Source of the DNA: Methylotenera sp.
GTDB lineage: Bacteria > Pseudomonadota > Gammaproteobacteria > Burkholderiales > Methylophilaceae
Length of the DNA stretch: 64,000 nt
Assembly (NCBI RefSeq): GCF_030653755.1
Contig: NZ_JAURYU010000045.1
Location: 1-64,000, forward strand
Direction: 5' to 3'
This document shows, in pieces, positions 33,567 through 34,583 of this stretch. Every line of letters starts with the position of its first letter. Position 1 is the stretch's first letter. A model generated the notes under the pieces. It worked only from the letters and a program-made list of their open reading frames with translations, was not told the DNA's origin and made no database searches. Both the position numbers and the translations under genes were made by a program.

Positions 33567-34583
33567 ATGTAAGTTTATTACGACAAAGACTCTGATTTTG
33601 GATTTATAAAAGGCAATAAAGTAACAATCGTTGGTTATGGCTCAAAAGGTCACGCTCATTCTGCAAACTTAAAAGATAGCGGCGCAAACGTAACTATCGG
33701 TTTACGTAAAGGCGGTAGCTCATGGGCTAAAGCAGTAGCAGCTGGTCACAACGTACTAGAAATCGCAGAAGCAACAAAACAAGCTGATGTTGTTATGTTG
33801 TTATTGCCTGACGAAACAATGCCAGAAATTTTCCACGCTGAAGTTGCTGCCAACCTAAAGCAAGGTGCTGCATTAGCTTTCGCACACGGCTTCAACATTC
33901 ACTACAACCAAATCACACCACGTGCTGATTTGGACGTGATCATGATCGCTCCTAAAGGTCCAGGCCACACAGTGCGTTCAGAGTACCTTAAAGGCGGCGG
34001 CGTACCTTCATTGATCGCTGTTTACCAAGATAAATCAGGTAAAGCGAAAGACATCGCACTTTCATACGCAGCTGCAAACGGCGGCACTAAAGGTGGCGTG
34101 ATTGAAACTGACTTCCGTGAAGAAACAGAAACTGACTTGTTCGGTGAGCAAGCTGTGCTATGTGGCGGTGCGGTTGAGTTAGTTAAAGCTGGCTTCGAAA
34201 CTTTGGTTGACGCAGGTTACGCACCTGAAATGGCATACTTTGAATGCTTGCACGAATTGAAATTGATTGTAGACTTGATGTACGAAGGTGGTATCGCGAA
34301 CATGAACTACTCAATCTCAAACAATGCTGAGTACGGTGAGTATGTTACTGGTCCTAAAGTGATTAACGATGAATCACGTTACGCAATGCAAGAAGCTTTA
34401 GCTAACATCCAAAACGGTAACTACGCTAAACAATTCATTTTAGAGGGTCGTACTAACTACCCTGAAATGACAGCACGTCGTCGTTTGAACGCAGCACACC
34501 CGATTGAACAAGTTGGTGGCCAATTACGTGCGATGATGCCTTGGATTGCTAAAAACAAATTAGTTGATCAATCTAAAAACTAA
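33567..34583 (+). CDS. ilvC: Ketol-acid reductoisomerase with in-frame TAA at codon 2
   Basis: IlvC carries out the Mg2+- and NADPH-dependent isomerisation/reduction in branched-chain amino acid synthesis. From ATG 33567 to the stop is 339 codons, exactly the usual size, and ribosome site AGAGGA is well spaced. The second codon (33570-33572) is TAA where AAA (Lys of the usual MKVYYDKD start) is expected. Downstream, NADPH loop GYGSKGHA (23-30) and the C-terminal domain are intact. The first later start in frame is ATG 33795, which would lose 76 residues including the NADPH loop. Either a sequence error, a new mutation, or unusual decoding. Confidence 0.85.

Follow-up and report, generated by a model that had tools for sequence, protein, structure and literature searches.

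The closest described counterpart of the gene examined here is the short-form ketol-acid reductoisomerase (KARI) IlvC, represented by NCBIfam PRK05479, the domain PF07991 and the structure 1np3, which we take to be the class I KARI enzyme of Pseudomonas aeruginosa. The ilvC gene of the Methylotenera genome under study agrees with this enzyme in that codons 33-338 look normal and in that it belongs to an ilvB-ilvN-ilvC cluster, and departs from it in that codon 2 is a stop and codons 9-32 carry six missense changes private to this genome, one of them within the nucleotide-binding motif. A second situation to which the locus can be compared is the nonsense pseudogene or the consensus error of a draft genome. 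As in these, an intact gene is broken at one place in a single genome while the relatives carry intact copies, but the break in ilvC is a tight, transversion-rich patch rather than one base, and the contig is clean otherwise. The third comparison is with mutation showers, which PMC3628087 describes as kilobase-scale clusters. Several substitutions packed into a short stretch are common to both; relative to the showers as described there, the ilvC patch is denser, with 8 private changes in 91 nt (private meaning unique to the Methylotenera genome among 30 congeners, itself counted), and its spectrum consists of A/T-directed transversions and not of C-targeted deamination. A literature search by title and abstract opening yielded no published report of an ilvC start-stop case.

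Table 1. Features of the ilv locus, with positions in the window (the whole analysed stretch of 64,000 nt)
Feature	Position	Strand	Remarks
ilvB, acetolactate synthase large subunit	31094..32818	+	intact frame
ilvN, acetolactate synthase small subunit	32818..33309	+	intact frame
ilvN-ilvC leader	33443..33566	+	6 sequences, mean column identity 90%
AGAGGA ribosome-binding site	33555..33560	+	6 nt before ATG; identical in five relatives
Start codon ATG of ilvC	33567..33569	+	from sequence; position conserved in 29/29 fetched congeners
In-frame TAA, codon 2	33570..33572	+	AAA in 29/29 fetched congeners
Patch, 8 private substitutions in 91 nt	33570..33660	+	30-congener comparison
Remaining ilvC frame, codons 3-338 and stop	33573..34583	+	open; top match ketol-acid reductoisomerase, short form
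KARI_N domain match, PF07991	33606..34097	+	begins at codon 14, ATA 33606-33608
ORF from next in-frame ATG, 262 aa	33795..34583	+	lacks the nucleotide-binding loop

A sequence-only reading of the window had noted that the ATG of ilvC is directly followed by an in-frame TAA. This ATG-TAA is indeed present at 33567-33572 (Table 1), and the identical ilvC sequence occurs in the whole-genome set of the organism (G000; 2,494,785 bases on 58 contigs, 99.68% complete), where the gene is located on a contig of 327 kb. Codons 3-338 are open up to a second TAA ending at 34583, and their product matches NCBIfam PRK05479 over residues 1-333 with 550.9 bits, which is above the cut-off, and PDB 1np3 with an E value of 1.1e-163. 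The KARI_N domain (245.3 bits) and the full-length C-terminal domain are found together in this one frame, and the match to NCBIfam TIGR00465 begins at residue 12 of the codons 3-338 product, i.e. at codon 14. What the gene does not have is a continuous translatable frame from a recognised start. No in-frame ATG, GTG or TTG lies between the codon-2 TAA and ATG 33795, which is codon 77 and situated beyond the nucleotide-binding loop, and the earlier statements that no usable start precedes this ATG and that its use would remove the NADPH-binding loop are both borne out. An upstream start was also considered; the frame from GTG 33522 is open, but terminates at the same codon-2 TAA. The ribosome site, described before as good, is likewise present and shared with relatives (Table 1). 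The leader of about 125 nt between ilvN and ilvC is conserved, the study genome showing no excess of changes compared to its relatives, and this stretch may serve as a regulatory leader of ilvC in the group. At the Rfam gathering thresholds no RNA family was assigned to it, the sole match being a tRNA elsewhere in the window, and a promoter and terminator scan of 33250-34760 returned no more than expected by chance.

Of the 51 further genomes in the genus, 29 supplied the fetched KARI loci, and the counts given here for codon 2 and for private sites rest on those 29. The comparison with related ilvC starts had been proposed with the expectation of AAA at codon 2, and AAA is the codon found in every fetched congener. 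A stop at this position occurs in none of 76 more distant KARI loci (80 loci, of which L051, L073, L091 and L092 could not be matched and were left out). We also screened genomes for the pattern of ATG or GTG, followed by TRR (TAA, TAG, TGA or TGG) and by one form of the IlvC N-terminus, which does not stand for every IlvC N-terminus. Among 187 genomes of the family only the Methylotenera genome under study matched, while 369 genomes sampled from the class gave two matches, this same genome and a GTG-TGG, which is not a stop. By this single pattern a recurrent ATG-stop ilvC was found in no other species of the 187 family and 369 class genomes, and whereas programmed readthrough or re-initiation would lead one to expect a conserved stop or restart site, the stop is absent from all 29 fetched congeners.

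The ilvC gene contains 10 private coding substitutions, and 8 of these are confined to nt +3 to +93. The first 95 nt hold 8 private sites as opposed to 2 in the remaining 922 nt (Fisher p 1.7e-7), and both of the latter are third codon positions. Four private columns upstream of the gene (-102, -89, -88 and -51) are located in gap-rich parts of the alignment and were excluded from the coding counts. The eight changes of the patch (33570, 33591, 33597, 33605, 33608, 33617, 33645 and 33660) have, in this order, the effects K2 to stop, A9S, L11F, L13F, a silent change at I14, K17N, Q27K and A32S. Six are missense, and the ATA at codon 14 arises from the silent change. All eight lead to A or T, seven are transversions, and the length of the sequence is preserved with no indel. 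The sequence-only reading had held that a single A-to-T change explains the stop, which does not agree with a TAA that is one of eight private substitutions within 91 nt. Its description of the rest of the gene as a full-length, normal enzyme is likewise not accurate: codons 3-338 are open, but they include six private missense changes, Q27K among them. At residues conserved between the relatives G008 and G003, seven changes (stop included) fall into one 32-codon window of ilvC and none into the other 314; the other residues of the patch match those of the congeners. A private patch of this density makes two sources more likely, an error in the local sequence or one burst of mutation. For the first of these we see an even chance: the TAA and the seven neighbouring private substitutions would be a local consensus error in the assembly, by which the first ~95 nt of ilvC would be corrupted over a short stretch with poor support and not beyond it, while the living cell would carry an ordinary ilvC.

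The residues introduced by the patch are unusual for this enzyme. Position 27 is Gln in all 109 KARIs compared (all 29 congeners and all 80 others) and forms part of the nucleotide-binding motif GYGSQGHAH, in which the Methylotenera ilvC encodes Lys instead. S9, F11, F13, N17 and K27 occur in none of the 109 sequences and S32 in two of them, whereas K17 is present in 97 and A32 in 107. With Q27K and residues never seen in the 109 KARIs, the protein resulting from readthrough of the stop would be abnormal as well, and as it would carry six private residues, five of them without precedent in the comparison set, readthrough becomes less likely. The same five residues bear on another account, by which the 5' end of the gene would have been replaced through recombination with a diverged, A+T-rich ilvC of an unsampled relative, the stop having arisen later or by error. 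In its favour, the changes are restricted to first and third codon positions and are conservative, as is the case in homologous divergence. A foreign segment accords poorly with the five residues without counterpart among the compared KARIs and with the congener residues that make up the remainder of the patch. A donor was not found in the same genome, where ilvC itself gives the sole significant match and the next one covers 22 query bases at an E value of 0.24, which is at chance level; a gene-conversion or template-switch donor within the genome is accordingly rejected. One 20-mer of the patch had no exact match in the viral contigs of IMG/VR, and a search of a phage collection in 'near' mode gave no match to the ilvC region. 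We regard such a replacement as quite unlikely.

Across codons 3-338, ilvC shares 98% identity with its two closest congeners. With only two private changes in the last 922 nt there is no pseudogene-like build-up of changes along ilvC as a whole. As codons 33-338 are undecayed, ilvC still functions or did so until very recently, and a real loss could only be of very recent date. The nearest relative is G040, from which the gene differs at 13 sites in its first 96 nt; 10 of these differences are transversions and 12 are directed to A or T. Over the remaining length there are 48 differences with 12 transversions, 44 at third and 4 at first codon positions, and the contrast in transversions (10/13 versus 12/48, reference G040) is significant at p 0.001. 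Restricted to sites where G008 and G003 agree, all 10 changes in the first 96 nt are to A or T, eight of them by transversion.

This combination was searched for along 324 kb of the 327-kb contig, wherever relatives align, by requiring 8-14 differences per 95 nt with at least 75% transversions and at least 90% of changes to A or T. The ilvC start was the sole pass when G008 and G003 were used together (153,815 windows), when G040 was added to these two (34,498 windows) and when G040 was the single reference (46,327 windows). Taking G008 as the single reference (273,938 windows) let one other short site through besides ilvC, at about position 293805 of the contig (C45). By plain clustering, which disregards the spectrum, the patch is not unique on the contig, and this speaks against an error. 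It ranks eighth when amino acids are compared pairwise with G008; it is second of 128 genes in a three-way test for excess changes at positions on which G008 and G003 agree, and by the number of private changes within the 64-kb window it is second to a cluster near 24062. Private counts with two or three relatives do not separate ilvC from fast-evolving regions of the contig. The cluster at 24062-24156, a 95-nt stretch within the minus-strand ORF 23932-24534, has 10 private changes based on at least four relatives; only 3 are transversions and it is not transversion-rich. First in the three-way test is a gene on the minus strand of C45 (119081-121921), which we take to be IleRS-like. Counted at positions conserved between two relatives, it has 24 changes in a stretch of 32 positions that starts at residue 263 in the protein of G008, as opposed to 31 elsewhere, and this stretch may be a locally replaced or fast-evolving segment. 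Two further N-terminal private clusters on the contig, in genes which are presumably NusB-like and CtaG-like, have unremarkable spectra and seem to be situated in variable regions.

The general quality of the contig was assessed against the matching stretch of G008, in which 257 of 300 ORFs have an orthologue on the study contig at 75% identity or more. Stops were found in 11 of the 257 alignments; according to a reading of the alignments, ten of them belong to over-extended starts or to ORFs of doubtful status, and ilvC is the sole case of a stop behind the start. A simple test detected no frame breaks in the compared part of the contig. With only ilvC broken among 257 orthologues and no frame breaks, a general quality problem is not visible, and poor contig quality as such is not supported. 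The otherwise clean contig also counts against a local error. It would fit a different account, in which ilvC was inactivated for real and very recently by one clustered mutation event, such as the error-prone repair of a lesion or break, turning the organism into a branched-chain auxotroph. We hold this to be possible, with clearly less confidence than an error, and with the same reserve we would expect the sequenced strain in that case to live on its neighbours or on the medium. A dense patch with its own spectrum and without indel is compatible with a single event, and the undecayed remainder of the gene is what a very recent one predicts. Eight private changes in 91 nt would be extreme for one event, and the template for a switch, as mentioned, is not found in the genome.

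The genomic context raises further difficulties for an inactivation. A KARI gene is present in 51 of the 52 genomes searched in the genus and in all 34 near-complete ones (the study genome counted in both), and a family search of the study genome identified no second KARI gene, the ilvC at 33567 being the only match. Two genes of the IlvD/Edd family are present in addition to ilvB and ilvN. Importers of the AzlC and BrnQ families were not found in the genome. The genome does contain two BPD_transp_2 permeases, both on contig C7 and adjoining the gene of a substrate-binding protein with a UrtA score; of the permeases, the one examined scored as UrtB, and the pair looks like a urea transporter. 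With a single KARI, intact ilvB and ilvN and neither AzlC nor BrnQ, true auxotrophy would look costly as far as these two importer families are concerned.

Alternatively the stop could be real and yet be bypassed. AUG-UAA would then act as a minimal start-stop, and IlvC would be made from a non-standard downstream start or by UAA readthrough. We consider this improbable. Such a start would most plausibly be the near-cognate AUA 33606, as the whole KARI_N domain would be kept: the PF07991 match begins exactly there, as does that of TIGR00465 at codon 14, and the ATA itself was created by a private change. In a more specific version, to which we assign a slightly lower probability still, translation would restart at AUA 33606 after the AUG-UAA, and the first 13 codons would be a neutrally drifting untranslated leader whose mRNA structure was lost. 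The divergence of the first 96 nt from G040 (0.14 differences per site) is about the third-position rate elsewhere in the gene (44 of 307), as if this stretch were unconstrained, and the preserved remainder of ilvC is also in line with continued use. The 5' mRNA of ilvC has a predicted folding energy of -14.8 kcal/mol; in congeners the values range from -16.3 to -31.9 kcal/mol, so that it is less structured than in 28 of 28 (one of the 29 had too little upstream sequence and was omitted), and the patch unfolds it more than the same changes do when placed at random (p 0.012). A restart at 33606 would nevertheless leave K17N, Q27K and A32S in the protein, all at conserved KARI positions, and AUA is a very poor translation start in general. 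The stop at codon 2 was seen in no other genome by the pattern search, and a suppressor of UAA is not evident among the tRNAs called. Rfam identified tRNAs at 40 places (150 of 183 candidates scored), with an ARAGORN tRNA at 39 of them and the single place without a call cut by a contig end; the anticodon TTA is absent among the called tRNAs, a list that is incomplete and misses several usual isotypes.

Observed at this locus are a stop, a clustering of changes, an unusual spectrum and an undecayed gene remainder, with no bypass among those sought. For a dense, A/T-directed, transversion-rich patch in a conserved gene of one genome, in which two importer families were not found, a local consensus error fits best, and we infer that the cause lies in the reads or the assembly and not in the cell. 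Three properties of the patch are unexpected of random errors and speak weakly against this. Second codon positions are spared (for the 8 private sites p is about 0.03, for all 13 differences 0.003), BLOSUM62 rates each of the six missense changes as conservative (p about 0.03), and the mRNA is unfolded as described above; these tests are post hoc, mutually non-independent and weak. They leave a biological reading some probability. The sequence-only reading had named error, recent inactivation and readthrough or re-initiation as the options, which is the right list, but treated the case as one point mutation. Rather than a novel mode of decoding, the damaged start of ilvC most likely reflects an error in the local sequence or a gene break of very recent date.

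If the patch is an error, it shows that auxotrophy or recoding should be claimed from a premature stop in a draft genome only after a test for private changes nearby, and the comparison of private changes and their spectrum against congeners along a contig is a cheap one. If it is real, ilvC would present a natural cluster of mutations of unusual density, from which an auxotroph devoid of the two importer families looked for arose, or else a case of natural AUA translation after a start-stop. The latter would be surprising for a biosynthetic enzyme of such importance, the ilvC product being a key enzyme in the biosynthesis of valine, leucine and isoleucine.
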